NCBI GenBank assembly: GCA_039944855.1
Contig: JBDUXZ010000037.1
Location: forward strand, 1 to 64,000
From: Rhodothermales bacterium
Lineage (GTDB): Bacteria > Bacteroidota > Rhodothermia > Rhodothermales > JANQRZ01
Direction of reading: 5' to 3'
DNA length: 64,000 nt
The position numbers were made by a program, and so were the translations under genes. Below are positions 2,831 to 19,957 of the stretch, piece after piece. The notes under the pieces were generated by a model. The model ran no database searches. It was not told where the DNA came from and was given only the letters and a program-made list of their open reading frames with translations. The first letter of the stretch is position 1. Every line of letters starts with the position of its first letter.

Positions 2831-2879
2831 GGTCCGTGGTCATTAGTCCGTAGTCATTGGTCACTGGTCCGTGGTTGCT
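2831..2879. repeat. Heptanucleotide repeat array
   Basis: Seven consecutive 7-nt units fit (A/G)GTC(A/C)NT with little deviation: GGTCCGT, GGTCATT, AGTCCGT, AGTCATT, GGTCACT, GGTCCGT and a decayed seventh. The array lies in the ccoI-ccoS spacer, and the ccoI stop codon (2861-2863) falls inside it. Confidence 0.75.
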
Positions 2880-5590
2880 CTGTCGAGCAGCGTTTCTGTG
2901 TCATCCTGAGCTTGTCGAAGGATCTCTCCCGGCACCGCGTTGCTCATCAGAGATGGGCTTCGCCGAGCCCTTCGGGGTTCCTCGGCTGCGCTCGGGATGA
3001 CACGTAGGGAGGTCTCACGGAGCTCTTCACCGGAGCCGCCGGTGGCCTGCCGTTGTTCCGGCCACGGCGGCGTGCGATTCGCGGTGAACGAGCGCTGGAG
3101 GATGGACGAGGCAACTACGACGAGCGACGAGACCGGCATCGCGACGGCGGCGACGAGCGGCGTGACGAGCCCTGCGACGGCGAGCGCGGCGCCGCCGACG
3201 TTGTAGACGAGCGAGAGCCCGAGATTGCGGCGGACGACGCCGAGCGTCCGCGCCGAGCCCCGCAGCGCGTCGGCGAGCGGGGCGAGGCCGGGCCGCGTCA
3301 TGAACACGTCGGCCGCGACGAGGCTCGCCGTGCTGCCGCCGCCGACGGCCACGCCGACATCGGCCGCCCGCAGCGCCGCCGCATCGTTGACGCCGTCGCC
3401 GACCATCAGCACCGTCCGCCCGTCGGCCTGCAGCGCTTCGACGAACGCACGCTTGCCTTCGGGCGAAACGCCGCCGTGCGCATCGCCGGGTGCGATCCCG
3501 ACCTCGGCCGCGACGGCCGCCGCGACGGCGGGGTGGTCGCCCGACGAGAGGAGCACGCGGTAGCCCCGGCGCTGCCAGCGCGCGACGGTCTCGGCGGCCT
3601 CGTCCCGCACCGCGTCGCCGACGGCGAGCACGGCGACGACGATCCCATCGACGGCCACCGCGACGGGCGTGTGGCCGCGCGCCGCGAACGCCGCTACGGC
3701 CTCGGTGAACCGAGCATCGGCCGAGACCGAGCGCTCGGCGACGCAGTCGAACCGGCCCACGGTCACGTAGCGGTCGCCGACGACGCCGCACACGCCCTGC
3801 CCGGCCGTCGCCTGGAAATCGTCGACGTGGAAGCCGTCGTCTTCCGGCCCGCCCCGTAGCCCGGCCGCGCAGCCGCGCGCCTGCACGATCGCCGTGGCGA
3901 TCGGGTGGTTGCTGTGGGCTTCGAGCGCGGCGGCGTAGTCGAGCGCGTCCTCGTCGCCGACGAAATCGACGAGGCTCATCCGGCCCTCGGTGAGCGTGCC
4001 CGTCTTGTCAAGCACGATCGTGTCGACGTCGGTGAGGCGCTGCGTGGCCTCGTCGCTCTTGATGAAGATGCCGGCGCGGGCGGCGCGGCCCGCCGCCACG
4101 GCCATCGCGAGCGGCGTCGCCATGCCGAGCGCGCACGGGCACGTGATGACGAGGAGCGCGACGACGTGCTGCGGCATCGCGCCCGGGTCGAGCCACGCCC
4201 AGAGCACGGCCGTGACAGCGGCGAGGGTGAGCACGGCGAGGGCGAAGTACCCGCTGATCCGGTCGGCGAGGAGGACGACGCGGGCCTCGCCCCCTTCCTG
4301 CTCGCGGACCCACGCGAGGAGCCGTCCGACGCGCGTGGCGTCGCCCGCCGCCTCGACGCGGACGCGGATCGGCGAGCTAAGATTGGTGGCACCGGCCTCG
4401 ACGGCGTCGCCCTCGGCGACGGGCTCGGGCCGGCTCTCGCCCGTCAGCACGGCGTTGTTGAGCCGGCTCGCGCCCCGCTCCACGATCCCGTCCACGGGCA
4501 CGACCTCACCCGCCGGGACCTCGACCACGTCGTCGGGCCGGACCTCGTCGAGCCGGACGACTTCGACGGCGTCGGCGTGGACGCGGCGGACCATCGACGG
4601 GATGAGCGCGAGGAGGCGTTCGGTGGCGTCGCCCGCGAGGCGGCGCGAGCGGAGCTGGAGCCACCGCGCCGTGAGGAGCGCGGCGATGAGGACGGTGATC
4701 GAGTCGAACCAGACCTCGCCGGTCCCCGTCACGGTCGCCCACGCGCTGTGGCCGGTGCCGACGAGGATGCCGAGCGCGATCGGCGTGTCGATGTGGAGGC
4801 GGCGCGGGTCGCGCGCACGGAAGGCGAGGCCGAGCGAGGCCCACGCCCGGCGGAAGAACGGCGCGCCGCCGTACGCGACGGCGGGGACGGCGAGGGCGAG
4901 GCTGACGTATCGCGCGGCACTCGCGAGCGCCGACGTTTCGCCGTCGAGCCCGGAGTAGAGCGCGAACGCGAGGAGCATCACGTTCCCGGCGAGCGCCCAC
5001 GTCACGCCGAGCCGGACGAGGAGCCGTCGCTCGGCGTCGGTGCGCTGCGCCGCGTGCTCGCTCCGCATCGGCCGCGCCGCGTAGCCGAACCGGCTGAGCC
5101 ACCGGCCGATGTCGGAGAGCCGGACCGTCGCGGGGTCGAACGTGAGCGCGAGGCGGGCGCGCGGGAGGTCGAGCCGCGCCGCCGTCACGCCGTCGAGTTC
5201 AAAGGGTAGCCGCTCGACGAGCCACACGCACGCCGCGCAGTGGACGCCGTCGAGGAAGAGCTCGACGGAGCGGAGCCCCTCCCCTGCCGGCTTCGTGTGC
5301 GCGTCGAGAAATGCGTCGGTGTCGAGCTCGCCGAGTTGGAGCGGGTCGGCCTCGGCGGGGCGCTCCGCCTTCCGCGTGGGTGCGAGGTCGCGGAGCTTGT
5401 AATACGTCCCGCCGAACCCGGCGGCGTCGAGCGCGGCGTAGACGACAGAGCAGCCCGTGCAACAAAACGCGACGCCGTCCTCTCTCCCCCGGATCGGGTG
5501 CGTCCCGACGGGGAGCCCACAGTGCGTGCACGGCGTCTCGGGGGCGAGGTCCGGCGCGGCGCGGCGAGAAGCTTGGAGCGTAGCGGGCAT
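2861..5590 (-). CDS. ccoI: Copper-transporting P1B-type ATPase CcoI with a repeat-derived C-terminal tail
   Basis: This 909-residue copper ATPase supports cbb3 oxidase assembly. The start chosen is MPATLQAS at 5590, because the upstream in-frame sequence is not conserved in character. Visible motifs are an N-terminal Cys-rich metal site (C21-x2-C24 and FCCTGC at 42-47), an HMA domain with HCAAC (117-121), the actuator TGES (383-386), the channel CPC (484-486), the phosphorylation site DKTGT (D528), an HP motif in SNHPIATAI, and the hinge VGDGVND. The family is usually about 800 residues. The last ~50-60 residues are encoded by a 106-bp inverted-repeat element and a heptad array (see findings), so they are probably not functional. 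It is separated from ccoGH by the phosphate operon. Confidence 0.93.
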   Translation of the reverse strand: MPATLQASRRAAPDLAPETPCTHCGLPVGTHPIRGREDGVAFCCTGCSVVYAALDAAGFGGTYYKLRDLAPTRKAERPAEADPLQLGELDTDAFLDAHTKPAGEGLRSVELFLDGVHCAACVWLVERLPFELDGVTAARLDLPRARLALTFDPATVRLSDIGRWLSRFGYAARPMRSEHAAQRTDAERRLLVRLGVTWALAGNVMLLAFALYSGLDGETSALASAARYVSLALAVPAVAYGGAPFFRRAWASLGLAFRARDPRRLHIDTPIALGILVGTGHSAWATVTGTGEVWFDSITVLIAALLTARWLQLRSRRLAGDATERLLALIPSMVRRVHADAVEVVRLDEVRPDDVVEVPAGEVVPVDGIVERGASRLNNAVLTGESRPEPVAEGDAVEAGATNLSSPIRVRVEAAGDATRVGRLLAWVREQEGGEARVVLLADRISGYFALAVLTLAAVTAVLWAWLDPGAMPQHVVALLVITCPCALGMATPLAMAVAAGRAARAGIFIKSDEATQRLTDVDTIVLDKTGTLTEGRMSLVDFVGDEDALDYAAALEAHSNHPIATAIVQARGCAAGLRGGPEDDGFHVDDFQATAGQGVCGVVGDRYVTVGRFDCVAERSVSADARFTEAVAAFAARGHTPVAVAVDGIVVAVLAVGDAVRDEAAETVARWQRRGYRVLLSSGDHPAVAAAVAAEVGIAPGDAHGGVSPEGKRAFVEALQADGRTVLMVGDGVNDAAALRAADVGVAVGGGSTASLVAADVFMTRPGLAPLADALRGSARTLGVVRRNLGLSLVYNVGGAALAVAGLVTPLVAAVAMPVSSLVVVASSILQRSFTANRTPPWPEQRQATGGSGEELRETSLRVIPSAAEEPRRARRSPSLMSNAVPGEILRQAQDDTETLLDRATTDQ
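2898..3003. repeat. 106-bp element with 9-bp terminal inverted repeats
   Basis: The ends are perfect inverted repeats, GTGTCATCC at 2898-2906 and GGATGACAC at 2995-3003. The inside has the ..CTGAGCTTGTCGAAGGAT.. and ..CGGCTGCGCTCGG.. segments seen in a widespread family of interspersed bacterial repeats. It is read in frame by ccoI and gives the protein motifs RVIPSAAEEPRR and LRQAQDDTE. No transposase is present. Confidence 0.75.
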
Positions 5591-5687
5591 GGAGCAGCGG
5601 AAAGGTCGGAGCCAAGATCCACCGCCGCGCGCACGCGACGTGACAGCCGCCCCGCGTCCTGCGAAGTGGGGCGACGGGGCGGGCGCG

Positions 5688-5706
5688 TGTAGGGGCGTTC
5701 CCCACA
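5688..5706. repeat. Short GTAGGGGC-type palindrome
   Basis: TGTAGGGGCGTTCCCCACA lies in the spacer between ccoI and the downstream PPK2 gene. It resembles the spacer palindromes at 13013 and 14690. Confidence 0.5.
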
Positions 5707-5728
5707 CGGCGCTGCCGCTGTCTTCGGC

Positions 5729-6481
5729 TTACCGCACCGGCGGCGGACCGACGGCCGGCTCCACATCGTACGCCGCGCTCAGCCCCTCTACGATCGTCCG
5801 CAGCACCTCGACACGGGCGTACCGCTTGTCGTCGCCCGCCACCACGGTCCACGACGCCTCGCGCGTATGCGTCTTCGCGAGCATGTCCGCGACGGCATCG
5901 TGATAATCGTCGCGCCGCTCGCGGTTACGCCAGTCCTCGTCGGTGAGCTTCCAGCGCTTGCGCGGGTCGGCCTCGCGCTCGCGGAAGCGGCGGAGCTGCT
6001 CGTCAGCGCTGACGTGCATCCAGAACTTGAGGACGACCGTGCCGTAGTCGACGAGCTGCCGTTCGAAGTCGCGGATCTCGTCGTAGCCCCGCTTCCACTC
6101 CTCCTTTTTGGCGAAGCCCTCGACGCGCTCGACGAGCACGCGGCCGTACCAACTCCGGTCGAAGATGGCGAGGCGGCCGGCTTCGGGGAGGCGGCGCCAG
6201 AAGCGGTGGAGGTAGTGCCGCCGCGCGTCTTCGCCCTCCGGCGGGCCGATGGGATGGACGACGTAGGCGCGCGGGTCGAGCGGGGCCGTGACGCGGCGGA
6301 TCGCCCCGCCCTTGCCCGACGCGTCCCACCCCTCGAAGACGAGGACGATGGGGCGGCGTTCGAGATACACCGGATAGCCCAGCGCCTGCAACGCGCGCTG
6401 GTAGTACGCGAGTTCGCGCTGGTAGTCGTCCTTGTCGAGCGACCGGCTCAGGTCGGCGTTGTCGAGGCGAGGCGGCTTCAT
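5729..6481 (-). CDS. Polyphosphate kinase 2 (PPK2) family protein, second of a pair
   Basis: This encodes 250 residues starting MKPPRLDN at 6481. PPK2 enzymes transfer phosphate between polyphosphate and nucleotides. Walker A is FEGWDASGKGG, Walker B is FDRSWYGRVLVERV, and a lid segment with RFREREADPRKRWKLTDEDW follows. Its ATG overlaps the stop of the upstream PPK2 gene by 4 bp (ATGA, 6478-6481), so translation is coupled. The two proteins together look like the two halves of a class II PPK2 (polyphosphate:AMP phosphotransferase). In the fused enzymes the C-terminal half, which corresponds to this gene, is the catalytic one. The nucleotide specificity cannot be read from sequence. Confidence 0.92.
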   Translation of the reverse strand: MKPPRLDNADLSRSLDKDDYQRELAYYQRALQALGYPVYLERRPIVLVFEGWDASGKGGAIRRVTAPLDPRAYVVHPIGPPEGEDARRHYLHRFWRRLPEAGRLAIFDRSWYGRVLVERVEGFAKKEEWKRGYDEIRDFERQLVDYGTVVLKFWMHVSADEQLRRFREREADPRKRWKLTDEDWRNRERRDDYHDAVADMLAKTHTREASWTVVAGDDKRYARVEVLRTIVEGLSAAYDVEPAVGPPPVR

Positions 6482-7194
6482 GCGGGGGCGAGGCGCGCTT
6501 CGAGCGCGTCGATAAGCGTGCGGTAGACGGCGTGGCGCGTCGCGTTCGGGCATGTCGCCGGGAGGACGGTCCACGGCGCGGCGTCGGTGTGGGTCCGCTC
6601 CAGCGCCTCCTCATAGACGGGCAGCCAGGCGTCGTAGCGGTGGTGATTCTGCCAGTCCTCGGGCGTGACGCGCCACGCCGTCACGGGGTCGGCCAGGAGG
6701 GCTTCGAGGCGGCGGCGCTGCTCCTCTTTGCTGATGTGGAGGAAGATTTTTACGAGGAGGTAGCCGTCATCGACGAGTGCACGCTCGAACTGGAGTATCT
6801 CGTCGTAGGCCCGCTTCCACTGCTTCTTCGTGACGTGGCGGTCGATACGCTCGACGAGGACGCGGCCGTACCAGCTCCGGTCGTAGAACGCCCACTCGCC
6901 GTGGCCGGGGATCTTCCGCCAGTAGCGCCAGAGCCACGGCCGCGCCGCCTCGAACGGACGCGGCGCGCGGATCGGGTGGACGGTGAACCCGCGCGGGTCA
7001 AGCCGTTCGGTGAGGGTGTGGATCATCGAGCCCTTGCCCGAGGCGTCCCAGCCCTCGAACGCCATCATCAGCGGGAGGCCGGCCTCGCTCGCCGCGCGGT
7101 GCAGTTCGGCGAGGCGATCGCGGAGGTCGGCCTCCTCTTCCCCGTAAGCTTCGTCCGAGAGCGTGCGCGTCAGGTCTACGGTGTCGAGCATCAT
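6478..7194 (-). CDS. Polyphosphate kinase 2 (PPK2) family protein, first of a pair
   Basis: This encodes 238 residues. It has the Walker A motif FEGWDASGKGSMIHTL, the Walker B motif YDRSWYGRVLVERI, and the lid region RRLEALLADPVTAWRVTPEDW. It corresponds to the N-terminal half of two-domain PPK2 enzymes. All nucleotide-binding motifs remain, so it may be active by itself. Its start codon shares one base with the stop of the Na/Pi transporter gene (TGATG, 7192-7196), and its stop overlaps the next PPK2 start. The three genes therefore form one translationally coupled phosphate/polyphosphate operon. Confidence 0.92.
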   Translation of the reverse strand: MMLDTVDLTRTLSDEAYGEEEADLRDRLAELHRAASEAGLPLMMAFEGWDASGKGSMIHTLTERLDPRGFTVHPIRAPRPFEAARPWLWRYWRKIPGHGEWAFYDRSWYGRVLVERIDRHVTKKQWKRAYDEILQFERALVDDGYLLVKIFLHISKEEQRRRLEALLADPVTAWRVTPEDWQNHHRYDAWLPVYEEALERTHTDAAPWTVLPATCPNATRHAVYRTLIDALEARLAPA

Positions 7195-8924
7195 CAGGAG
7201 GGGTCGAGCGTCGGCATGGTGCCGAGCGGGGCGCCGTCCGTCGGGAACGCGACGCTGCGCTGCTCGACGGCTTTGGCGATGCGCTTGGCGAAGTAGTAGA
7301 CCCGCTTGAGGTACTCGATCAGCTCGGACTCGAAGCGGTAGAGGCTGAGCCGGTCGGGGTCGTCGGCCGTCAGGCGGTGGGCGAGGTGGGACTCGGCTTC
7401 GTCGGCGAGCCGCTGGATCTCGGACTTGGCGTCGATCACCTCCGCGGCCATCGCCGGGCTGTCAGCATCGAGCGCTTGGAAGGCGAGCTGGACGGTCCAG
7501 CACACCCGCTCGTGGAGGGCTTCGAGCCGCTCGCGCGTGCCCTCGCTGACGGTCATCCCCACCCCGAGTCGTTCGAGCCCAGCCCGCACGAGGTTCGTCT
7601 CGACGAGGTCGCCGATGTTCTCCATGTTGTTGGCCGCTTCGAGGTAGTCGAAGTGCTGCTCGGTCTGGGCGCGGTCGAGGTTCTCCTGCGCGAGTTTGCC
7701 GAGGTAGCCCACGACGGCCTCGTGGAGCCTGTCCACCTCATCGTCGAGCCGTTCGAGCGCCCTCAGCTCTTCTAGTTCGCCGTCGAGCGCGACGGGGAGG
7801 GCCTCGCGAACCATCGCATACGCCCGCTCGCCGATCCGGCGGAGCTCCATCCGCACCCGGTCGAGCGCGAGCGCGGGCGTGTCGAAGAGGATCGGGTCGA
7901 GGTAGCGCGGCTGCACGACGGCGCCGTCGGCCTCGGACCGCTCCGGGACGAGGCGCCGCACCAGCCACGCGAAGGCCCCCGTGAAGGGCAGGAAGAGCAG
8001 CGTGTTGGCGACGTTGAAGAGCGTGTGCGCGTTCGCGATCTGGCGCGGCGCCTCGGCGGCCAGCCGCGCCGCCCCCACCAGCTCCGGGTGACTCGGCGAG
8101 ATGGCGCGCACGACCTCGGCGAGTTGGACCACGAGCCCGAACCAGATCACTACGCCGACCACCTTGAACACGACGTGGGCGACGGCGGCGCGCACGGCCT
8201 CGCGCGGCTTCCCGATCGCCGCCAGCATGGCCGTGGCGCACGTCCCAATATTCGCCCCGAAGACGAGGGCGATCCCCGCCTCGAGCGAGAGGAAGCCCTG
8301 GCTCGCGAGGACGATCACGACGCCCATCGTGGCCGACGACGACTGGATCACGGCGGTGAACACGGTGCCGATGAGGATCCCCACGACCACGTTATCCATC
8401 TGCTGCATCAGCGCCATGAACGGCGCGTAGCTGCGCAGCGGGTGCGTGGCCTCGCTCATCAGCTCCATCCCGAAGAAGATCAGCCCCAGCCCCAGCACCA
8501 TCGTGCCGTACTGCCGGACGCGGTCCCGCTTCGAGACGAACTGCATCACGAACCCGACGGCGACGAGCACGAGCGCGTACTGCGTCACCTTGAAAGCCAC
8601 GATCTGCGCCGTGAGCGTCGTCCCGATGCCAGCCCCGAGGATCACGCCGATCGACTGCGGCAGCGTCATCAGCCCCGCCGAGATGAACCCGACGACGAGC
8701 ACCGTCGTCACCGACGACGACTGGATCACGGCCGTGACGAGCGCGCCGGCGAGCACCCCCGTGAAGCGGTTCTTCGTCAGCCGGGCCAGCAGCGTCTTCA
8801 TGCCGCCGCCCGCGACCTGCTTGAGGGCGTCGGTCATCTGCTCCATCCCGAAGAGGAACAGAGCGAGGCCGCCTGCGAGGCCGATCACGATCGGCCCAGC
8901 GTTGATGGCATGGGTGGGATCCAT
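7194..8924 (-). CDS. Na+/phosphate cotransporter family protein with PhoU-like C-terminal domain
   Basis: This 576-residue protein is of the NptA/PNaS type. The N-terminal ~330 residues contain several hydrophobic segments and the two inverted repeats typical of the family, each with the TAVIQSSS motif followed by a GANIGT/GAGIGTT motif. The C-terminal ~220 residues are helical and PhoU-like (LERLDDEVDRLHEAVVGYLGKLAQENL). It probably moves phosphate across the cytoplasmic membrane with Na+. Coupling to two PPK2 genes suggests that phosphate uptake or export is linked to polyphosphate turnover. Confidence 0.93.
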   Translation of the reverse strand: MDPTHAINAGPIVIGLAGGLALFLFGMEQMTDALKQVAGGGMKTLLARLTKNRFTGVLAGALVTAVIQSSSVTTVLVVGFISAGLMTLPQSIGVILGAGIGTTLTAQIVAFKVTQYALVLVAVGFVMQFVSKRDRVRQYGTMVLGLGLIFFGMELMSEATHPLRSYAPFMALMQQMDNVVVGILIGTVFTAVIQSSSATMGVVIVLASQGFLSLEAGIALVFGANIGTCATAMLAAIGKPREAVRAAVAHVVFKVVGVVIWFGLVVQLAEVVRAISPSHPELVGAARLAAEAPRQIANAHTLFNVANTLLFLPFTGAFAWLVRRLVPERSEADGAVVQPRYLDPILFDTPALALDRVRMELRRIGERAYAMVREALPVALDGELEELRALERLDDEVDRLHEAVVGYLGKLAQENLDRAQTEQHFDYLEAANNMENIGDLVETNLVRAGLERLGVGMTVSEGTRERLEALHERVCWTVQLAFQALDADSPAMAAEVIDAKSEIQRLADEAESHLAHRLTADDPDRLSLYRFESELIEYLKRVYYFAKRIAKAVEQRSVAFPTDGAPLGTMPTLDPS

Positions 8925-9666: not shown

Positions 9667-11118
9667 TTACTGCGACGGGCCGAGGAGGGGGAACGGGACG
9701 ATTTGCTCCGAGCCGTCGCTGAAGACGATGCGGAAGACGGCGTCACGGCGGTCGGCCCCGGCGAAGAGCGCGCGCGGGACGACGACGAACGCCTCGACCC
9801 GCTTCATCTCCGCCGACGCGAGCGGCACCGGCTGCACGCCGACGATCTTCACCTCGGCCTCGGCCGGCTCGACGGCTTCGATCTCGAACGTCGCCGCCGA
9901 CGGCGTCTGGTTACGGACGCGGAAGCGGAGCCGGTTCGCGACGGTCCCGTCGGGCAGTTCGACGAACGGCTCGCCGACGGCGCGGCCCACGTTCACGTCG
10001 AACGCCCCGCGCGAGACCACGCCAACGCCGAGCATCGTCATCACCGTGAGAAAGAGGCCGGCGTAGATCACCGTGCGCGGCCGGAGGATGCGCGTCTTCA
10101 GCCCCTCCAGTTCGTGCTCCGACGTGTAGCGGATGAGCCCCGGCGGCTTGCCGATGTTCAGCATGATCTCGTCGCAGGCGTCGATGCACTGCGTGCAGGC
10201 GATGCACTCCATCTGGAGCCCGTCGCGGATGTCGATGCCGGTGGGGCAGGTGCGGACGCACGCGAAGCAGTCGATGCAGTCGCCCTGTTTGGGGATCAGC
10301 CCGGCCTCCTCCTGCTCGATCTTCTTCTTCGAGCGGCGGGCGCGCGGCTCGCCCCGGCGCGGGTCGTAGGACACGATCATCGAGTCCTCGTCCACGAGCA
10401 CCGATTGGATGCGGGCGTAGGGGCACGCGATCGTGCACATCTGCTCGCGGAAGTAGCCGAAGTCGTAGAGCACGAGCGCCGTCGTGACGGCCATCAGCAC
10501 GAAGAAGCCCCAGTGCTCCGTCGGCGGCCCCGTCATCCACTCGATGAGCCGGTCCCACCCGACGAAGTACGACACGAAGACGTGCGCGAGGGCGAGGGAG
10601 ATCGCGAGGTAGATCCCCCACTTCGCCACCTTCCGCCACGCCTTGTCGAGCGTCCACGGCCCCTCGTCGCGCCGCTTGCGGACGTGCTCTTTCCCTTCGA
10701 TCCACCGCTCGATCGGGCGGAAGACGAACTCGAGGTAGACCGTCTGCGGGCAGCCCCACCCGCACCACACGCGGCCGAGGAGCGCCGTGAGGAGGATGAC
10801 GAAGACGAGCGCGCTGAGCCCGAGGAGCAGGAGGAGGAACGTGTCCGTCGGGTAGAACGTGATGCCGAAGAGTGCGAACTCGCGGTGGATGAAGTCGAGA
10901 AGGATCGCCGGCCGGCCGTTGATGCGGAGGATGGGGAGCGCGACGAAGAGCACGATCAGCCCCCACCCCATCACGAGGCGTTGCCGGTAGAACGGGCCCT
11001 TGCTCAGCGTCGGGTAGATCCACTTCCGGTTGCCCTCCAGGTCGAGCGTGGAGAGCACCGCGTCGGGCGATTCGAGGATGTCGACGCTGTCGGCGTCGAT
11101 GAACGAGCGTGCGGCCAT
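9667..11118 (-). CDS. ccoG: cbb3 oxidase accessory protein CcoG (ferredoxin-like)
   Basis: This 483-residue membrane iron-sulfur protein starts MAARSFIDADS at 11118. It has the CcoG hallmark GRPAILLDF, several membrane helices, GRVWCGWGCPQTVYLE, and two ferredoxin motifs (CIDCFACVRTCPTGID and CIACTQCIDACDEIM). It ends with the Ig-like IG-FixG domain (about 370-483). CcoG reduces or handles copper for the CuB centre of cbb3 oxidase. It follows ccoP after a 152-bp gap and is followed directly by ccoH. Confidence 0.97.
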   Translation of the reverse strand: MAARSFIDADSVDILESPDAVLSTLDLEGNRKWIYPTLSKGPFYRQRLVMGWGLIVLFVALPILRINGRPAILLDFIHREFALFGITFYPTDTFLLLLLGLSALVFVILLTALLGRVWCGWGCPQTVYLEFVFRPIERWIEGKEHVRKRRDEGPWTLDKAWRKVAKWGIYLAISLALAHVFVSYFVGWDRLIEWMTGPPTEHWGFFVLMAVTTALVLYDFGYFREQMCTIACPYARIQSVLVDEDSMIVSYDPRRGEPRARRSKKKIEQEEAGLIPKQGDCIDCFACVRTCPTGIDIRDGLQMECIACTQCIDACDEIMLNIGKPPGLIRYTSEHELEGLKTRILRPRTVIYAGLFLTVMTMLGVGVVSRGAFDVNVGRAVGEPFVELPDGTVANRLRFRVRNQTPSAATFEIEAVEPAEAEVKIVGVQPVPLASAEMKRVEAFVVVPRALFAGADRRDAVFRIVFSDGSEQIVPFPLLGPSQ

Positions 11119-11270
11119 GGGGGCGGGCGTTTGGGAGAGACGACCCAAGATCGCGCGGCCCCGTGCTCGCCGCCGCCGTCCGACGCCACGGCCTGCCGCA
11201 AGGCGGCCCCGTCCCCCACCGTGGGGGGATTCCTTACACGCTGCGCTGTCGCCCCGGCGCTAGCCAGGCG

Positions 11271-11909
11271 CTAGGCCCCTTCGTAGGGGTCGAGCTCGCC
11301 CTCCGGCTCTTTGGCGCCGGCGGGGTCGGTGTCGTCGATGGAGCGGATGAAGGCGAGGAGCTCGGCGCGCTCTTCGGCGGAGAGCACGTTCTCCCACGGC
11401 GGCATCCCCTTCGCCGGCACGCCGACGGCGAGGATCTCCCAGATCGCCTCGTTCGAACTGCCGTGGACCCAGTAATCGTCGGTGAGGTTGGGGCCGATGA
11501 GGCCCTGCCCCTCGTTGCCGTGGCAGGAGGCACACGTCGCCGCGTAGACCTCGGCGCCGGCCGCAGCCATCTCGGCGTCGCTCGCATAACGCATGAGGGC
11601 GCGCTCGTCGGTCTCGAAGGCGGGGCCGCTCGCGGCGTACGCATCGCGCATCTCCACGAGCTCGGCCTGCGCCTCGGCGAGGTCGTCCTCGTAGGTGTCG
11701 ACGAAGCCGAAGACCTCGATGCCGAGGAAGTACACCACGCCAAAGACGACGGTGATGACGAAGAGCCAGACCCACCAACCGGGCATCGGGTTGTCGTACT
11801 CGCGGATGCCGTCGTACTTGTGGCCGGGGATGACTTCGTCGGCGGCGCCGCCGACGAGGAGGGAGCCGGACTCGGGCGCTTTGGGAGACTCGGGAGGGGG
11901 CTGGCTCAT
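11271..11909 (-). CDS. ccoP: cbb3 oxidase subunit CcoP, monoheme form
   Basis: This 212-residue protein is the membrane-anchored cytochrome c subunit of cbb3 oxidase. The N-terminal part has HKYDGIREYDNPMPGWW, the signature of CcoP, and one membrane helix (about 44-66). It carries a single heme c site, CASCH at 126-130, with a downstream axial Met in KGMPPW. Canonical CcoP is about 300 residues with two CxxCH sites, and the second cytochrome domain is absent here. It starts 1 base after the ccoQ stop. Confidence 0.95.
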   Translation of the reverse strand: MSQPPPESPKAPESGSLLVGGAADEVIPGHKYDGIREYDNPMPGWWVWLFVITVVFGVVYFLGIEVFGFVDTYEDDLAEAQAELVEMRDAYAASGPAFETDERALMRYASDAEMAAAGAEVYAATCASCHGNEGQGLIGPNLTDDYWVHGSSNEAIWEILAVGVPAKGMPPWENVLSAEERAELLAFIRSIDDTDPAGAKEPEGELDPYEGA

Positions 11910-11910
11910 G

Positions 11911-12111
11911 TCAGGGGCGGTTGCCGTTGTCGGAGGACGCGCGCGGGAGTTCGGGCGCGTCGTCGAGGGGGAGGTTCTTGTCGTACTCGCGCTTCCGCTT
12001 CGAGAGCGTGAAGGCGTAGATCACCATGAGCACGAAGGCGACGAGGAAGGCGATGAGCCCGATCTGGGCGAGGATGCCGGTCTCCATCGCGCGGACCACT
12101 TCTTTCATCAT
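11911..12111 (-). CDS. ccoQ: cbb3 oxidase subunit CcoQ
   Basis: This encodes 66 residues starting MMKEVVRAMETG. It has one membrane helix (LIAFLVAFVLMVIYAFTL) followed by SKRKREYDKNLPLDD, a typical CcoQ tail. Its ATG overlaps the ccoO stop by 4 bp (ATGA, 12108-12111), so translation is coupled. CcoQ stabilises the CcoP-CcoNO complex. Confidence 0.92.
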   Translation of the reverse strand: MMKEVVRAMETGILAQIGLIAFLVAFVLMVIYAFTLSKRKREYDKNLPLDDAPELPRASSDNGNRP

Positions 12112-13001
12112 GGCTGGTCGGGGGCTTGAATTCCGTCGTCTGCGGGATCGTCTACGACGGTGCCGTCTTCGCTCCGGTCGAGGTCCACGTCGTCGGGCTC
12201 GGTGCCCGGCGGGAGGTCTTCGACTTCGAGGTCGGTGCCGGGGAGGTCGCCGGGCTGTTCGTCCTGCATGGTTTCGATGATCTCCTCGCGCTCGTGCTCT
12301 TCGAGGTCGTCCTCGGCGGGGGCCGCTCCGAGGAAGGTGCCGAGGCGCTGGAGGTAGGCCACGACGGCGGCGATCTCCTTGTCTTCGAGCCCGGCCGGCC
12401 CGCCCTGCTCCACGACGGAGGCGGCGACGGCGGCGGCCTGCGCGCGGGCGAGGGCGACGGCGTTCTCGACCTCCTCGTCGGAGTACGGCACGCCGACGGT
12501 GCGGAGCGCGCGGAGCTTGCCGGGGATGTCGTCGAAGTCGAGTTCGTGCGAGAGCAGCCACGGGTACGGCGGCATGATCGAGCGCGGGGACGTGGAGCGC
12601 GGGTTCTCCATGTGACGCACGTGCCACAAGTCGGGGTACTTCCCACCGACGCGGGCGAGGTCCGGCCCGGTCCGCTTCGAGCCCCAGAGGAACGGGCTCT
12701 CGTAAACGGTCTCGCCGGGCTTCGAGTAGTCGCCGTAGCGCTCGATCTCGTGGCGGAACGGGCGGACCATCTGGCTGTGGCAGCCGACGCAGCCCTCGCG
12801 GATGTAGAGGTCGCGGCCGGCGACTTCGAGCGGCGTGAACGGCTCGACCGTCGCGATGTCCTCCACCTGGTCGTCGACGAGCACGAGCGGGAGGAACTCG
12901 ACGACGCCGCCGACGAGCACGGCGACCGTGGTGAGGGCGGTGAAGACGAGGGGCCACCCTTCGAGCCGGCGGTGGAAGCCGTTGGTGTCGAGGAATTTCA
13001 T
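12108..13001 (-). CDS. ccoO: cbb3 oxidase subunit CcoO (monoheme cytochrome c)
   Basis: This 297-residue protein has an N-terminal membrane helix (about 17-40) and one heme c site, CVGCH at 71-75, inside the conserved REGCVGCHSQMVRPF block. Other conserved blocks are WGSKRTGPDLARVGGKYPD and PRSIMPPYPWLL. It carries electrons between CcoP and CcoN. The last ~65 residues form a very acidic, low-complexity tail not present in canonical CcoO, perhaps an adaptation to salt. Confidence 0.97.
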   Translation of the reverse strand: MKFLDTNGFHRRLEGWPLVFTALTTVAVLVGGVVEFLPLVLVDDQVEDIATVEPFTPLEVAGRDLYIREGCVGCHSQMVRPFRHEIERYGDYSKPGETVYESPFLWGSKRTGPDLARVGGKYPDLWHVRHMENPRSTSPRSIMPPYPWLLSHELDFDDIPGKLRALRTVGVPYSDEEVENAVALARAQAAAVAASVVEQGGPAGLEDKEIAAVVAYLQRLGTFLGAAPAEDDLEEHEREEIIETMQDEQPGDLPGTDLEVEDLPPGTEPDDVDLDRSEDGTVVDDPADDGIQAPDQP

Positions 13002-13012
13002 GGGGGATCGGG

Positions 13013-13040
13013 GTAGGGGCGCAGCATGCTGCGCCCGTAC
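13013..13040. repeat. Palindrome GTAGGGGC...GTAC in the ccoN-ccoO spacer
   Basis: The core at 13017-13036, GGGCGCAGCATGCTGCGCCC, is a perfect 20-bp palindrome, and the flanks extend it to 28 bp with one mismatch. It lies between the ccoN stop and the ccoO start, so as RNA it would form a strong intercistronic hairpin. It belongs with the related palindromes at 5688 and 14690. Confidence 0.75.
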
Positions 13041-13056
13041 GGGGAAGGCGGGAAGA

Positions 13057-14559
13057 TCAGTGGGCGGCGTCGGCGGGCTCGGCCTGGAGCGGGAGCGCGA
13101 CGGAGGGGTCGGGGAGGTCCTTCGGCGCGCGGCGGACCGTCATCCACATGTTCACCATCAGCATCATCACGCCGACGAGGTAGAGCGTCCCGCCGATGAG
13201 GCGGACCCAGTACATCGGCTTGATCTGGACGACGGTCTCCATGAAGTCGGGGTAGACGAGGCGGCCGGCTGTGTCGAACGCCCGCCACATGAGCCCCTGC
13301 GTGATGCCGGAGTTGTACATCGCGAGGACGTACATCAGAATTCCGACGGTGCCCGTCCAGAAGTGCCAGTTGGCGAGTTTCTCCGACCACAGCGGCGTCC
13401 GCCAGAGCCGGGGCAGCAGCCAGTAGATCATCCCGAACGTGAGGAACCCGTTCCAGCCGAGCGCGCCGGAGTGGACGTGCGCGATGTTCCAGTCGGTGTA
13501 GTGCGAGAGGGCGTTGACGGACTTCACCGAGAGCATCGGGCCCTCGAACGTGGACATCCCGTAGAACGTGATCCCGACAACGAACATCTTGAGCACGACC
13601 GAGTCGCGGAGCTTGTGCCACGCGCCGCGCAGCGTGAAGAGCCCGTTGATCATCCCGCCCCACGACGGCATCCAGAGCATGACGGAGAACACCATCCCGA
13701 GCGTCGCCGCCCACTCCGGCACGGCGGTGTACTGGAGGTGGTGCGGGCCGGCCCAGATGTAGATGAACACGAGCGACCAGAAGTGGATGATGCTGAGCCG
13801 GTACGAGAACACCGGCCGCTCGGCCGCCTTCGGGAGGAAGTAGTACATCAGCCCGAGGAACGGCGTCGTGAGGAAGAAGGCGACGGCGTTGTGGCCGTAC
13901 CACCACTGCACGAGCGCGTCCTGCACGCCGCGGTAGATGGGATAGCTCTTGAGGAGGTCGGCCGGGATCGCGAGGCTGTTCCCGATGTGGAGCATCGCCA
14001 CCGTGATGATGGTGGCGATGTAGAACCAGAGCGCGACGTACATGTGCTTCTCGCGGCGTCGCCACAGCGTCCCGAAGAAGTTGACGGCGAAGACGACCCA
14101 GATGAGCGTGATGGCGATGTCAATCGGCCACTCCAGCTCGGCATACTCCTTCGACGTCGTATAGCCGAGGGGGAGCGTGATGGCGGCGCTGACGATGATG
14201 GCCTGCCAGCCCCAGAAGTGCACCTTGCTCATCACGTCGTTGAACATCCGCGCCTTGCACAGCCGCTGTGTCGAGTAGTAGATCGCGGCGAAGATGGCGT
14301 TTCCGGCAAACGCGAAGATCACCGCGTTCGTGTGGAGCGGGCGGAGCCGCCCGAACGAGAGGTACTCGCCGAGGTTGGCCTCGGGGAACGGGAGCTGCAG
14401 CGCGATCAGCGCGCCGACGAGCATCCCGATGAAGCCCCACAGCACGGTGGCGTACACGAACATCCGCACGATGGCGTCGTCGTACGAGAAGACCTCGAAG
14501 CGCGAGCGGTCGCTGCGGAGGAGGGCCGCTTGGGCGGTCGAGGAGGGAGGGATAGCCAT
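13057..14559 (-). CDS. ccoN: cbb3 cytochrome c oxidase catalytic subunit CcoN
   Basis: This 500-residue protein starts MAIPPSSTAQ at 14559. It is a heme-copper oxidase subunit I of C type with about 12 membrane helices. It reduces O2 to water and pumps protons at high oxygen affinity. Visible signatures are HTNAVIFAFAGNAIFA (heme ligand helix), QWWYGHNAVAFFLT and WAGPHHLQYT (CuB histidines), and HVHSGALGWNG (heme b3 region). It is the first gene of ccoNOQPGH. No FNR or FixK box is obvious upstream. Confidence 0.98.
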   Translation of the reverse strand: MAIPPSSTAQAALLRSDRSRFEVFSYDDAIVRMFVYATVLWGFIGMLVGALIALQLPFPEANLGEYLSFGRLRPLHTNAVIFAFAGNAIFAAIYYSTQRLCKARMFNDVMSKVHFWGWQAIIVSAAITLPLGYTTSKEYAELEWPIDIAITLIWVVFAVNFFGTLWRRREKHMYVALWFYIATIITVAMLHIGNSLAIPADLLKSYPIYRGVQDALVQWWYGHNAVAFFLTTPFLGLMYYFLPKAAERPVFSYRLSIIHFWSLVFIYIWAGPHHLQYTAVPEWAATLGMVFSVMLWMPSWGGMINGLFTLRGAWHKLRDSVVLKMFVVGITFYGMSTFEGPMLSVKSVNALSHYTDWNIAHVHSGALGWNGFLTFGMIYWLLPRLWRTPLWSEKLANWHFWTGTVGILMYVLAMYNSGITQGLMWRAFDTAGRLVYPDFMETVVQIKPMYWVRLIGGTLYLVGVMMLMVNMWMTVRRAPKDLPDPSVALPLQAEPADAAH

Positions 14560-14689
14560 AGGTCGCGGAAGCAGGTGCGGAACGGGGCAGGAGCGAGGGT
14601 CGGCGTGATGCGGAAAGGACGGGGGCAAGTAACCCCGCCGCGTGGAGGCGGGCTGACGGTGCGCGGTGCGGCGCGGTGTGGGGCACCTC

Positions 14690-14718
14690 TGTAGGGGCCG
14701 GTAGGGCGTTCCCCTACA
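14690..14718. repeat. GTAGGGG...CCCCTAC inverted repeat
   Basis: TGTAGGGG (14690-14697) and CCCCTACA (14711-14718) form an 8-bp stem at the 3' end of the first universal stress gene, overlapping its stop codon. It may end that transcript. The sequence resembles the palindrome at 5688. Confidence 0.55.
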
Positions 14719-15229
14719 TCCACGCGAGCTGGATGCGCTCGCGCACGGCTTCGAGCACGCCGGTCCACGGCACCGCCTCGACGGCGAGCGGGACGACTTC
14801 GACCGGACACGGCGCCCGCGCGGCGACGGCCTCGGCCACGCTCCCGTGCAAGAGGCGCTGCACGCCCCGGCGGCCGTGCGTCCCCATCACGATGAGGTCG
14901 GCCCCGATGTCGCGGGCGCAGGCGAGGATCGACGGCGCGGGGTCGGGCGCGAGCCGCTGCTCGACGGTGAGGCGCACGTCGTCGCCCGCGTGGGCGGCGG
15001 CGAGATGCTGGAGGGCATCGCGCGCCACCGTCCGCATCCGCGCCCGCAGCGCGCGCGTCGACTCGGACTCGACGGCCTCCGGCGGGAGGTCGTGCAGGAG
15101 CGAGTCGAAGACGTGGAGGAGGTGGACGCGGGCGCCGAGCGAGCGCGCCTTCTCGACGGCGTGGTCGAGCACGGCGGCGTCCTCATCCGAGAGGTCGGTG
15201 GGGACGAGGAGTGTGGAGGGAGGCGACAT
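14714..15229 (-). CDS. Universal stress protein (UspA), single domain
   Basis: This encodes 171 residues. The N-terminal strand LLVPTDLSDED is followed by HLLHVFDS, DLIVMGTHGRRG and HGSVAEAVAARAPCPVEVV. The G-2x-G-9x-G-S/T motif (GTHGRRGVQRLLHGS) is the ATP-binding form. Single-domain Usp proteins are cytoplasmic dimers made under stress or low oxygen. It lies between the cco operon and a second Usp gene, a context also seen in microaerobic regulons. Confidence 0.93.
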   Translation of the reverse strand: MSPPSTLLVPTDLSDEDAAVLDHAVEKARSLGARVHLLHVFDSLLHDLPPEAVESESTRALRARMRTVARDALQHLAAAHAGDDVRLTVEQRLAPDPAPSILACARDIGADLIVMGTHGRRGVQRLLHGSVAEAVAARAPCPVEVVPLAVEAVPWTGVLEAVRERIQLAWM

Positions 15230-15508: not shown

Positions 15509-16489
15509 TCAGACGCCGACTTCCGGCTCCGGCGTCGGGCGTGCCGAGCGGTCGGCCGCGAGCGACTCGGCCTGCTGCACGTCGGCATCACTCTTCGTGA
15601 CGAGGACCGGGCAGCGGGCGAGGCGGAGCACACGCTCGGCCACGCTCCCGAGGAGGAGGTGCTTGAGGCCCGAGAGCCCGCGCGTCCCCATCACGATGAG
15701 GCCGCTCCCGAGCCGCTCGGCTTCCTTCACGATCACGTTCGGCGACTGCCCGACGCCGACGTGGACGCGGACGTCGAGCGCCGTGCCGGGCGCCGCCGCC
15801 GTCTCGTCATCGACGAGGCCATGGAGCTGTTCGAGCGCGTGCTCGGCGAACTGCGGGCCGTACTCGTAGACGATGAACCCGGTATCGTAGAACGCGGGCA
15901 CGGGAACCGTCTCGCCGACGTGGAGCAGGTCGAGCCGCGCGCCGAGGAGGCGGGCGAGGCGGACGGCCTGCCGCACGGCGGCCTTGCTCGACTCGGAGAA
16001 ATCGACAGGCACGAGGATGGACGCGATCTCCTCTACGGTCGGCCCATTCGCGCGCACGGTGAGGACCGGGCACGGCGCCCAGCGAACGACCTCTTCGGCG
16101 ACGCTGCCGAGCAGCATCCGCCGCAGCCCACTCCGCCCATGCGTCCCCATCACGATGAGGTCGATGTCATGCTCCTCGGCGTAGCGGAGGAGCGCCGGCG
16201 CGGCGGCCACATCGCGCACCACGGCGTGCTCCATCTTCACGCTGCCGGGGTCGAAGCGGACGTGCTCGTCGCGGTCGTGCTCGACGCCTTCCTTGAGCCG
16301 CTCGCGGAGCTTGTCGAGCGCGTCGGCCCCGGTGTCGGAGCGGCCGTAGGGGTCGGCGTGGAGCACGTCGGCGTGGACGACGTGGACCGTCGCCCCGGAC
16401 TGGGCGGCGAGGAAGAGCGCGGTTTCGAGGGCGCGCTCGGCGCACGGGGAGAAGTCGCGCGCGACGAGGATGCTGCGGATCGGTTTCAT
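15509..16489 (-). CDS. Tandem-domain universal stress protein
   Basis: This 326-residue protein has two UspA domains in tandem. The first (1-147) has ILVARDFSPCAERALETA and GTHGRSGLRRMLLGSVAEEV. The second (about 155-300) has ILVPVDFSESSKAAVRQA and GTRGLSGLKHLLLGSVAERV. Both keep the ATP-binding G-x2-G-x9-G-S motif. A loose Pro/Ser tail follows. It is probably co-transcribed with the two genes downstream. Confidence 0.94.
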   Translation of the reverse strand: MKPIRSILVARDFSPCAERALETALFLAAQSGATVHVVHADVLHADPYGRSDTGADALDKLRERLKEGVEHDRDEHVRFDPGSVKMEHAVVRDVAAAPALLRYAEEHDIDLIVMGTHGRSGLRRMLLGSVAEEVVRWAPCPVLTVRANGPTVEEIASILVPVDFSESSKAAVRQAVRLARLLGARLDLLHVGETVPVPAFYDTGFIVYEYGPQFAEHALEQLHGLVDDETAAAPGTALDVRVHVGVGQSPNVIVKEAERLGSGLIVMGTRGLSGLKHLLLGSVAERVLRLARCPVLVTKSDADVQQAESLAADRSARPTPEPEVGV

Positions 16490-16528: not shown

Positions 16529-17374
16529 TCAGGCCGGGAGCCGCTCGATGTGGCGAAAGAGGTCGGAGTAGGCGGCGGATTCGGCGGGGCGCGTGTAGGG
16601 TGGCGTGGCGGTGCCGCCCCCGCTGAGGAGGAGGACTTGGCCGGTCACGCCGCGAGCCTCGCTGGAGGCGAGGAAGCGGGTCGTGTAAGCCGCATCGTAG
16701 AGTTGGTGCGAGCGGCGCTGCCGGTCCACGCGCACGGCCGCCGCCGAGCCCAGCGCTGCCATGTCGAGGGTGTGGTCGGCGCGGGCGGGGTCCTCCATCG
16801 CCACGCCGTTGAGCGTGACGCCGCGGTCGTGGAGCGCCGTCGCGGCGGCGTGCACGAAGGCGCCGAACGACGACACGGCGACCTTGCAGGCCGCCTCGCC
16901 GAGCCGCCCGGGCCATGCGCCCCGGAGGAGCGCCGTCAGCACGACGTTCCCCTCGGGCTGCCGCTCCAGCGCCGCCCCCGCCATACGGACGGCGGGAACG
17001 AACGAGGCGAGGTCGACGGAGAGCGCGCCGTCCCCCGCCCCGTTCCGCACCGTCACCTCGCCGTTGACCACGACGGCGTCGACGCGGCCGAAGGTGCTGA
17101 GCGCGGTGCGGATGATGAGGCGGGCGCCGGCGTCCGTCGCCGCGTCGGCCTCCACGAAGACCGGTTCCGCCTCGAGGCCGTGGAGCGCGCGGATGCGCTC
17201 GACCTCGGCCAGCACGGGCCGGGCGGCTTGGGCGTTGGCGTCGGAGAAGAGGATGCAGCGTGACTCGCCGGCGAGGCGGCGGGCGACGGCTTGGCCGATG
17301 GGGCCGGCGATGCCGGTCACGACGGCCACGGTGCCGACCATACTTGGGGTCGGCGAAAGGGACGCAGCTTCCAT
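16529..17374 (-). CDS. SDR-fold protein with a degenerate active site
   Basis: This encodes 281 residues from the ATG at 17374. A GTG 12 bp upstream and an ATG at 17341 are alternatives. The Rossmann start is VAVVTGIAGPIGQAVARRL (TGxxxGxG), with DANAQAARP at the cofactor-specificity strand and VVVNGEV at the NNAG position. At the catalytic site the expected Y-x3-K reads E-A-A-C-K (GEAACKVAV), so the Tyr is Glu, and the upstream Ser is replaced (VVLTALLRG). It is therefore probably not a normal dehydrogenase. The C-terminal TGQVLLLSGGGTA is the usual SDR end. Confidence 0.85.
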   Translation of the reverse strand: MEAASLSPTPSMVGTVAVVTGIAGPIGQAVARRLAGESRCILFSDANAQAARPVLAEVERIRALHGLEAEPVFVEADAATDAGARLIIRTALSTFGRVDAVVVNGEVTVRNGAGDGALSVDLASFVPAVRMAGAALERQPEGNVVLTALLRGAWPGRLGEAACKVAVSSFGAFVHAAATALHDRGVTLNGVAMEDPARADHTLDMAALGSAAAVRVDRQRRSHQLYDAAYTTRFLASSEARGVTGQVLLLSGGGTATPPYTRPAESAAYSDLFRHIERLPA

Positions 17375-17510
17375 GGGAGCGGGCACTGGGGGTGGACTCG
17401 GAGGTTCAGCCCCAGGCTACGCCGTCCGCTCCCGCGCCGCTGACAGGCTGCGCGCCGCCCGCATCGTGGGGTCCTTGCGCCCGCCGATGTGGGGGAAATC
17501 CTCGCACGAA

Positions 17511-17631: not shown

Positions 17632-18282
17632 TCAGTGCGCGCCTTCGCCCTCGACCCACTGCACGGCCTGCTGCAGCAGTTCTGTCCCCGTCTCGATGTT
17701 GAGCTTCTGCTTGATCCGCGCGCGGTAGCTCTCGACCGTCTTCACCGAGAGGTGCAGCCGCTCGGCGATCTCGCGCGTCGGCAGCCCACGCCCCGTCATC
17801 TCGAACACCTCCAACTCGCGGTCGGAGAGCACTTCGAGCGGGGACTGCATCGGGGCCTTCCGCCCCACGGCCGCCCCGAAGAGCAGCCGGTCCTTCAGCT
17901 CGTCGCTCATATAGATCCCGCCGCGGAGGACGTGGCGGACGGCCTGCACGATCTCGTTCCCCGCCTCCAGCTTCATCACGTAGCCCTTCGCCCCGGCGCG
18001 GACGGCGCGCTCGGCGTAGAGCGCCTCGTCGTGGCGGGAGACGACGAGCGTGAGGAGGTCGGGGTTGAGCGCGAGGAGGTGCTTCAAGAGCTCGATCCCG
18101 CTCATCCCCGGGAGGGAGATGTCGATGAGGACGAGGTCGGGCTTGAGCTTGTCCATCACCGAGAGGGCTTCCTCGGCGTCGGCGGCTTGCCCGACGACCT
18201 CGATGTCGGACTCGGCCGAGAGCGTGAGGGCGAGGCCCTTCCGCATGAGCGGGTGGTCGTCGACGATCATCAGGCGGTGCAT
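17632..18282 (-). CDS. NarL/FixJ-type response regulator
   Basis: This 216-residue protein has a receiver domain (1-120) with acidic pocket D8-D9, phospho-acceptor D54 (LVLIDISLPGM) and K104-like LEAGN after GAKGYVMK. The C-terminal LuxR-type helix-turn-helix (about 148-205) reads VLSDRELEVFEMTGRGLPTREIAERLHLSVKTVESYRARIK. It is 49 bp downstream of a PAS histidine kinase and is its likely partner. The oxidase operon next door is a plausible target, but no binding site is known. Confidence 0.95.
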   Translation of the reverse strand: MHRLMIVDDHPLMRKGLALTLSAESDIEVVGQAADAEEALSVMDKLKPDLVLIDISLPGMSGIELLKHLLALNPDLLTLVVSRHDEALYAERAVRAGAKGYVMKLEAGNEIVQAVRHVLRGGIYMSDELKDRLLFGAAVGRKAPMQSPLEVLSDRELEVFEMTGRGLPTREIAERLHLSVKTVESYRARIKQKLNIETGTELLQQAVQWVEGEGAH

Positions 18283-18331: not shown

Positions 18332-19957
18332 TTACGGGCGGTGGCCGTCGAGGAGGATCGTGCAGGTTACGATCGTCCCCCCGTCGACGGCGGGGCGGAT
18401 GTCGAGGGTGCCGCCGGCGATGCGGGCGCGGTAGTGCATGATGCGGACGCCCATGCCGCGGTTGTCGTCGGGCCGGGCGGGGGCGGCGACGCTTCCGCCG
18501 TGGACCCCGGCGACAGGCGTATCGACGGCGGGCGTGTCGGCGCCGCCGGCGCGGATCGCATCGGGGAAGCCGACGCCGTCGTCGTGGACGCGGAGCCGGA
18601 CCTGCTCCTTCCCCACCGAGAGCGCGATGTCGATGCGGCTGGCGCGGCCGTGGCGGACGGCGTTGCTCACGGCCTCCTGCGCGATGCGGAAGAGGTGCAT
18701 CGGGTGCGGGACGGCGGCGACGCCGGCGTCGAGCCCGCTCGTTTCGAACGCGCACGTGACGTTGAAGAGCCGCTCGGCGTTCGAGGCGAGCCGCGTGAGC
18801 GCGGCGGCGAGCCCGTTCGCTTCGAGCTCGACGGGCACGAGTCCACGTGCGAGGCCTCGGGCGTACTCGTCGGCTTCTTTGATGAACTGCGTGATCTCGC
18901 GCGCGTCCTCGGCGACGGGCGAACCGGCGGCTTCGAGCTGCCGCGCGAGGCCGCGCGCGAGCAGGCCGATCCCGGTGAGCTGCTGGCCGAGCCCGTCGTG
19001 GAGGTCCTGCCCGATCCGGCGGCGCTCCTCGTCGGCGATGCGGAGGACCTCGAGCTCGAGCCCCCGCCGCTCGGAGATGTCGCGGACGATGCCGGTGAAG
19101 ATCTTCCGCCCCTCCAGCTTCACCTCGCTCACGGCGAGGTCGAGGGGGAACGTGCTGCCGTCCTTGCGGCGGCCCGTCACCTCGCGGCCGATCCCGATGA
19201 TGCGGCGGCGGCCGGTCTGGTGGTAGGCGTGGAGGTAGCCGTCGTGCTCCTCGTGGTAGGGCTCGGGCATGAGCACGCGGACGTTCTTCCCGATCACCTC
19301 GGCGGCGGCGTAACCGAAGATCCGCTCGGCCGCCGGGTTGAACGTCTCGATGCGCCCCTCCGCGTCGATCGTGATGATGCCGTCGACGGTCGTTTCGAGA
19401 ATCGCGCGGGCGAGGGCTTCGCTCTCGCGGAGCGCCCGCTCGGTCCGGCTCTCGCCGAGCGCCCCCGCGAGCACGTGCCCCACGGCCGCGACGAAGGCGT
19501 GCTCCTCCTCCCCCAGCACGCCGGGCGCCGGCACGCACGCGGCGAGCACGCCGAAGGGCCGCGCCTCGCCGCCGATCCGCACGCACACGCCCTCCACCAC
19601 CGTCGGCTCGGGCACGAACGGGGGTCGCGCCGTCCGCTCGCGGAGTGCGACCGGGCCGGACGTCTGCAACGCCTCGGTGAGCGGAAGCCCGGCCTCGTCG
19701 GATATCCTGCGCTCGCCCGTGCCGTTCGCCTCCGGATGAAGCAGGAGCCAATCCCCGCCCCGGACCTCGAACACGGCGACGAGGTCGGTCCCCAACGCCT
19801 CTCCCACCGTGCGGACGGCGCGCTCGACCACTTCCTGCGGCGTTGCGGCGGTTAGTGCGTACTGCCCCAGCGCGGCTACGGCGTCGTACCGCGGCGTCCC
19901 GTCGAGCCCCGCATCGGGGTCGCCGGGGAGGGATAGATGGGGGTTCGACGGGGGCAT
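18332..19957 (-). CDS. GAF-PAS histidine kinase with a FixL-like PAS domain
   Basis: This encodes 541 residues from MPPSNPHLSL at 19957. The order is GAF-like (about 30-170), PAS (183-300), HisKA_3 (about 305-375) with H320 in IGQDLHDGLGQQLTGI, and HATPase (about 425-535). The PAS domain closely follows the heme PAS of rhizobial FixL: MPEPYHEEHDGYLHAY and IIGIGREVTGRRKDGSTFP. H238 aligns with the FixL heme-ligand His and R258 with the O2-sensing Arg (family knowledge). No membrane segment is present. It is thus a candidate soluble oxygen sensor upstream of the response regulator. Confidence 0.93.
   Translation of the reverse strand: MPPSNPHLSLPGDPDAGLDGTPRYDAVAALGQYALTAATPQEVVERAVRTVGEALGTDLVAVFEVRGGDWLLLHPEANGTGERRISDEAGLPLTEALQTSGPVALRERTARPPFVPEPTVVEGVCVRIGGEARPFGVLAACVPAPGVLGEEEHAFVAAVGHVLAGALGESRTERALRESEALARAILETTVDGIITIDAEGRIETFNPAAERIFGYAAAEVIGKNVRVLMPEPYHEEHDGYLHAYHQTGRRRIIGIGREVTGRRKDGSTFPLDLAVSEVKLEGRKIFTGIVRDISERRGLELEVLRIADEERRRIGQDLHDGLGQQLTGIGLLARGLARQLEAAGSPVAEDAREITQFIKEADEYARGLARGLVPVELEANGLAAALTRLASNAERLFNVTCAFETSGLDAGVAAVPHPMHLFRIAQEAVSNAVRHGRASRIDIALSVGKEQVRLRVHDDGVGFPDAIRAGGADTPAVDTPVAGVHGGSVAAPARPDDNRGMGVRIMHYRARIAGGTLDIRPAVDGGTIVTCTILLDGHRP

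Follow-up and report, generated by a model that had tools for sequence, protein, structure and literature searches.

A FixL-Type PAS Domain in a HisKA_3 Kinase Paired with a DevR/NarL-Type Regulator and Linked to cbb3 Oxidase in Rhodothermales

Introduction

What does the soluble histidine kinase encoded near the cbb3 oxidase genes of a Rhodothermales bacterium sense, and which genes does it command? The question arises from a window of 64,000 nucleotides, which is the whole stretch of DNA analyzed here (positions 1 to 64,000 of contig JBDUXZ010000037.1). For this window, the original prediction proposed a FixL-like haem PAS domain in a HisKA_3 kinase, a FixJ-like response regulator and a nearby cbb3 operon, and regarded an oxygen sensor of this type outside Proteobacteria as notable. 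The last point holds in part. Haem-PAS domains outside Proteobacteria have already been predicted in bulk, as the FixL/DosP PAS cluster has more than 9,700 His-containing members and haem is predicted in thousands of them (PMC10468136). What is new, and what remains notable, is the combination of input and output and the regulon, together with the operator. A literature search for a FixL-like haem PAS combined with HisKA_3 found nothing specific, and a search on O2 control in Rhodothermales and Salinibacter found nothing specific either, including no O2-responsive regulator of the lineage.

Results

Domain make-up of the kinase

The kinase, regulator, SDR, Usp and cco genes of the window, with the domains and codons given for them below, are on the minus strand. 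The open reading frame at 18332..19957 encodes a soluble sensor histidine kinase of 541 amino acids, in which the domain search located GAF (residues 40-167), PAS (184-296), HisKA_3 (311-377) and HATPase_c (419-536) domains. Orthologs of the kinase occur in 74 of the 114 genomes of the order Rhodothermales. The expectation of a HisKA_3 core rather than the HisKA core of FixL was borne out, where the E value in the window kinase is 3e-12 and all 28 orthologs checked have HisKA_3, the FixL-type HisKA core being absent from them. The N-termini of the orthologs differ, with a GAF domain, a receiver-like domain, an apparent membrane helix or none of these, and therefore the PAS domain and the kinase form the conserved unit.

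The predicted phosphorylated histidine of HisKA_3 is H320 (18998..19000) in the DLHDGLG motif, which is invariant in 68 of 68 sequences. In 67 of 67 sequences, H320 lies 27 residues after D293, the end of the PAS domain, and this constancy is consistent with a rigid helical transmitter. The GAF domain (19457..19840) is weak in the window kinase (Pfam GAF E 2e-4) and is not conserved, as its model is matched by only 8-11 of 28 orthologs. It was rejected as the haem site, because it is weak here and missing from most orthologs and the haem residues are found in the PAS domain; it could also sense something.

FixL-type PAS domain

The PAS domain is encoded at 19070..19408 and has a predicted haem b site. 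When its sequence was compared against all solved structures, the top matches were FixL chains with E values of 3e-38 to 2e-30, led by FixL of S. meliloti (1d06, 3.3e-38), followed by E. coli DosP at 4e-17 and other PAS proteins at 3e-10 or worse. The proposed closeness to FixL is thus confirmed at a level well above chance, and the motifs quoted for it are present. The NCBIfam FixL equivalog model matches the PAS domain only, giving 155 bits, which is below its cut-off of 850. In the AF2 model of the domain (pLDDT 85), the first 20 PDB matches are all FixL haem domains, and the superposition on oxy-FixL (1dp6) gives a TM score of 0.92 and an rmsd of 1.2 Å.

The alignment of the PAS domain to FixL runs without gaps through the haem site and places H238 (19244..19246) on the ligand histidine and R258 (19184..19186) on the distal arginine, as had been proposed. 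In the numbering of B. japonicum FixL, we take these to be H200, the haem-ligand histidine, and R220, the O2-contacting arginine; the two pairs have an equal separation of 20 residues. H238, which is the predicted proximal ligand, is placed in the helix 234-248 of the full AF2 model, and R258 is the predicted distal residue in contact with O2. As for conservation, H238, Y241 and R258 are each the same in every one of 65 distinct PAS domains taken from orthologs in 14 Rhodothermales families. The histidine and the distal arginine are also retained in relatives of the same class outside the order (f18) and, where the PAS domain can be aligned, in relatives belonging to Verrucomicrobia, Planctomycetes and Proteobacteria.

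Response regulator

The response regulator gene (17632..18282) lies approximately 50 bp downstream of the kinase gene and encodes a REC-GerE protein of the DevR/NarL type. A regulator gene is the co-directional neighbor of the kinase gene in 62 loci, with a median gap of approximately 19 bp. The best solved match of the window regulator is DevR of M. tuberculosis (3c3w, 4e-31) and FixJ is found at 2e-11. VraR and NarL follow closely behind DevR in the structure matches, where DevR is at the top for two orthologs, and the NCBIfam FixJ model ranks far down for the regulator, under its cut-off. The description of the regulator as FixJ-like therefore applies only in the broad sense of the NarL/FixJ family. 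Since the regulator is of the DevR/NarL type and not of the FixJ type, the pair is not FixLJ.

In three genomes (G018, G080 and G095), an extra DevR-type regulator copy without a kinase lies beside ccoN in divergent orientation (L120:11572-12195, L123:2174-2806 and L125:6378-7019), and the pair is located elsewhere.

Gene neighborhood and linkage with cbb3

The cbb3 genes ccoN, ccoO, ccoP and ccoG are found at 9667-14628, in agreement with the cbb3 operon of the original prediction; the correction is that two universal stress protein (Usp) genes and a short-chain dehydrogenase (SDR) gene intervene between the pair and ccoN. The domain search identified these as the SDR gene at 16529..17386, a tandem Usp gene at 15509..16489 and a second Usp gene at 14714..15229. 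In 35 genomes, which represent 9 families, Usp genes lie close to the kinase and its regulator.

The cbb3 genes begin with ccoN for oxidase subunit I (13057..14559; COX1 E 4e-124), for which the start MAIPPSS was assigned by inspection, followed by ccoO (FixO, 12108..13001; E 7e-89). A small membrane protein of 66 amino acids (11911..12111; MMKEVVRAMETGILAQIGLIAFLVAFVLMVIYAF) is putatively assigned as ccoQ-like from its position and sequence. ccoP (FixP, 11271..11909) was identified by the domain search, ccoG (FixG, 9667..11148) by FixG_C (5e-13) and Fer4_18 (8e-44), and ccoI (FixI, 2861..5707), which encodes a copper P-type ATPase, by E1-E2 ATPase (3e-45), ATPase-cat_bd and HMA. Between ccoG and ccoI, at 6478-8924, the window also encodes a polyphosphate kinase of the PPK2 type together with a Na/Pi cotransporter-PhoU protein.

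Across the order, the kinase is present in 39 of the 41 genomes with full-length FixO and in 35 of the 73 without it (Fisher 8e-8, with kinship ignored). The distance between the kinase and cbb3 genes is within about 11 kb in 15 of the 39 genomes with both, which belong to 7 families and are not phylogenetically independent. The linked loci differ in orientation and spacing.

Predicted operator palindrome

The palindrome TGTRGGG-N5-CCCYACA was found upstream of ccoN, where at least 12 of its 14 positions are matched in 21 of 23 cases and 11 in the other two, against a random-window background of 3.4% for at least 12 of 14. In the window, the operator-like site before ccoNOQP (14700..14718) has the exact core. 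Three further sites are found: one before the SDR-Usp genes at a distance of 102 bp (17488..17506; 12 of 14), one before ccoG (11220..11238; 12 of 14) and one at the 5' end of ccoI (5688..5706; exact match), where the true start of ccoI is probably downstream of the site. Each of the four sites precedes one unit of the stretch from the regulator to ccoI, namely SDR-Usp, ccoN, ccoG or ccoI. The ccoN site was used in the definition of the motif and the other three were not. The four window sites with two or fewer mismatches compare with an expectation of 0.16, and four were reached in 0 of 100 shuffles.

In 1.33 Mb of loci, 107 sites with at least 12 of 14 matches were found, 71 of which precede a handful of gene families; the value for background windows is 1.1%. 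A site is located upstream of 91% of ccoN genes, 36% of nitroreductase genes, 29% of kinase genes, 27% of YceI genes, 23% of ccoG genes and 21% of Usp genes. A strong site precedes 21 of 73 kinase genes, the window kinase being among those without one, and in several families the motif lies before the gene for the kinase or for the regulator.

In the genome of the window, some matches to GTRGG-N7-CCYAC were set aside, as they resemble tRNA T-arms by eye (GGTTCGAATCC), and a stricter core, GTRGGG-N5-CCCYAC, was used from then on. The 4.6-Mb genome of the window (G000, 41 contigs) has only three exact cores, located before ccoN, ccoI and the pyruvate phosphate dikinase gene, the last at approximately 96 bp upstream (G000:C24:215087-215103; L147:4088-4104). 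The dikinase was rejected as an order-wide target, since an exact site precedes it in 1 of 19 kinase-bearing genomes, which is that of the window itself. The mean number of exact cores per genome is 2.0 in the 74 genomes with the kinase versus 0.53 in the 40 without it (p 1.5e-8, with kinship ignored), and a reversed control motif gave no significant association with the presence of the kinase.

In the genomes of genus g24, where the kinase is present and FixO was not found, perfect palindromes precede a nitroreductase gene, a Usp gene and one Rrf2 regulator gene. In other genomes, operator-like palindromes precede ccoI, a glutamate dehydrogenase gene and, in two families, hemA for glutamyl-tRNA reductase (L229:3694-5094 and L234:2494-3024), which suggests that haem synthesis belongs to the same regulon. 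The occurrence of palindromic operator-like sites before Usp, nitroreductase and regulatory genes fits the definition of a DosR/OsdR-like regulon (PMC5069765).

One further contig, which has two exact operator-like sites, carries a short C-terminal remnant of the regulator (G043:C136:8416-8523; 69% identical over 36 amino acids), possibly a decayed or broken gene.

Discussion

The sequence, the fold, the invariant ligands, the conserved linkage and the shared operator all support the original prediction, in which a soluble HisKA_3 kinase with a FixL-like haem PAS is tied to cbb3. The analysis extends it to the view that a FixL-like haem-PAS O2 sensor with a DevR-like output probably controls cbb3 and a DosR/OsdR-like hypoxia regulon directly. 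From the homology, the linkage and the motif, we infer haem binding, O2 as the signal, the direction of regulation and the binding of the regulator to the palindrome. In the proposed mechanism, haem b would be bound in the FixL-type PAS domain through H238, and O2 on the iron, contacted by R258, would shift the PAS core. This shift, transmitted via the helix of fixed length (295-343), would keep the HisKA_3 kinase off under O2. As O2 falls, the kinase would autophosphorylate at H320 and phosphorylate the adjoining DevR-type regulator, which would then bind the TGTRGGG-N5-CCCYACA palindromes and directly activate ccoNOQP, ccoG and ccoI. Across the order, the regulator may further act on Usp, nitroreductase, YceI and hemA genes as well as on the gene of its own kinase, and the net output would be a programme of low-O2 survival and high-affinity respiration.

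The first alternative concerns the signal. In the window kinase, the proximal Arg206 of FixL, located at the haem edge, is not kept and is replaced by A244; among the orthologs, this position is N, S, A or R and mostly one of the first three. The R206A variant of FixL shows weaker O2 binding and less complete switching, so that the O2 affinity may be lower, or the coupling weaker, than in FixL. This replacement would also suit a sensor that keeps the fold and haem of FixL and responds to NO, CO or the haem redox state instead of O2 binding, as would the combination of HisKA_3 with a DevR-type output, which recalls DevS/DosT, where the regulon is also induced by NO and CO (PMC5069765). Such a signal is considered unlikely, given that the O2-contacting R258 is invariant and that the linked and operator-bearing genes serve low-O2 respiration.

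The second alternative concerns the protein that binds the palindrome. Each genome has many NarL-type paralogs, and in one draft genome (G044, 88% complete) exact sites are found near cbb3, where both the kinase and the regulator were not found. It is conceivable that another regulator, such as FNR/CRP, Rrf2 or a NarL-type paralog, controls cbb3 through the palindrome and that the pair adjoins it by history. This reading is also improbable, as the motif tracks the kinase and precedes genes of the pair itself, and as an FNR/FixK box, which was sought upstream of ccoN, is not above background there. The lack of enrichment of an FNR/FixK-type box before ccoN also favors direct control.

That the PAS domain is now without haem, serving another ligand or dimerization only and keeping its FixL-like residues for the fold, is very unlikely: approximately 40% of the FixL/DosP cluster is without the histidine (PMC10468136), which indicates that the subfamily does lose haem, and 24 of 113 PAS columns, beyond the histidine and arginine alone, are at least 98% conserved, but both residues are unvarying in the 65 orthologs and both are lost in a second, diverged PAS domain located upstream in tandem in two orthologs (His to Leu/Met, Arg to Tyr/Gln), which indicates that the fold tolerates their loss.

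Direct control by a haem-PAS O2 sensor may extend to the class. It appears reasonably likely that Rhodothermia share a class-wide O2 system, where the place of the haem GAF known from DosR-like systems is taken by a haem PAS of the FixL type. Through one previously undescribed operator, this system would directly command high-affinity respiration by cbb3 with the genes for its assembly, a dormancy-like programme of Usp and nitroreductase, and haem synthesis. If this is true, the rhizobial FixL input and the mycobacterial DosR-type output are joined in a third phylum, which would be evidence for the exchange of O2-sensing input and output modules with the target set kept. The sensor, regulator, DNA site and targets are all named, and thus each step is directly testable.

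The kinase resembles FixL of S. meliloti and B. japonicum in the haem PAS fold, the proximal histidine, the distal arginine and the hydrophobic distal Ile/Leu, and differs from it in the HisKA_3 core and the alanine for Arg206. NreB-NreC of Staphylococcus is also an O2-responsive pair of a PAS and HisKA_3 kinase with a NarL-type regulator; however, NreB senses with a Cys-bound Fe-S cluster, whereas the Rhodothermales PAS has the haem residues of FixL. The pair shares with DevS/DosT-DevR of Mycobacterium and OsdK-OsdR of Streptomyces the HisKA_3-type kinase, a regulator of the DevR/NarL type and a GGG..CCC palindrome. In DevS/DosT and OsdK, the haem is located in a GAF domain, whereas in the Rhodothermales kinase it is predicted in the FixL-type PAS. 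The DevR/OsdR hypoxia regulons, with their GGG..CCC palindrome, include Usp, nitroreductase and pyruvate phosphate dikinase, the last an OsdR target in Streptomyces (PMC5069765); Usp and nitroreductase are predicted targets in common, and the dikinase is so in the genome of the window only. The present palindrome departs from the DosR/OsdR operators in its GTR/YAC ends and its 5-bp center, and cbb3 is a main predicted target in Rhodothermales.

As in FixLJ, a kinase-regulator pair is tied to cbb3. In rhizobial FixLJ, fixK is the only conserved known direct target (PMC4999443), whereas here the partner is of the DevR/NarL type, operators are predicted directly on the cco genes and a FixK step was not found. 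E. coli DosP and the FixL/DosP haem-PAS cluster (PMC10468136) represent the same PAS subfamily (E 4e-17), and the output of DosP differs, being a c-di-GMP phosphodiesterase. On a Planctomycetes contig (L045:6043-8376), a FixL-type PAS is repeated six times in tandem; every repeat keeps the haem histidine and the distal arginine, and one of the six has an in-frame stop.
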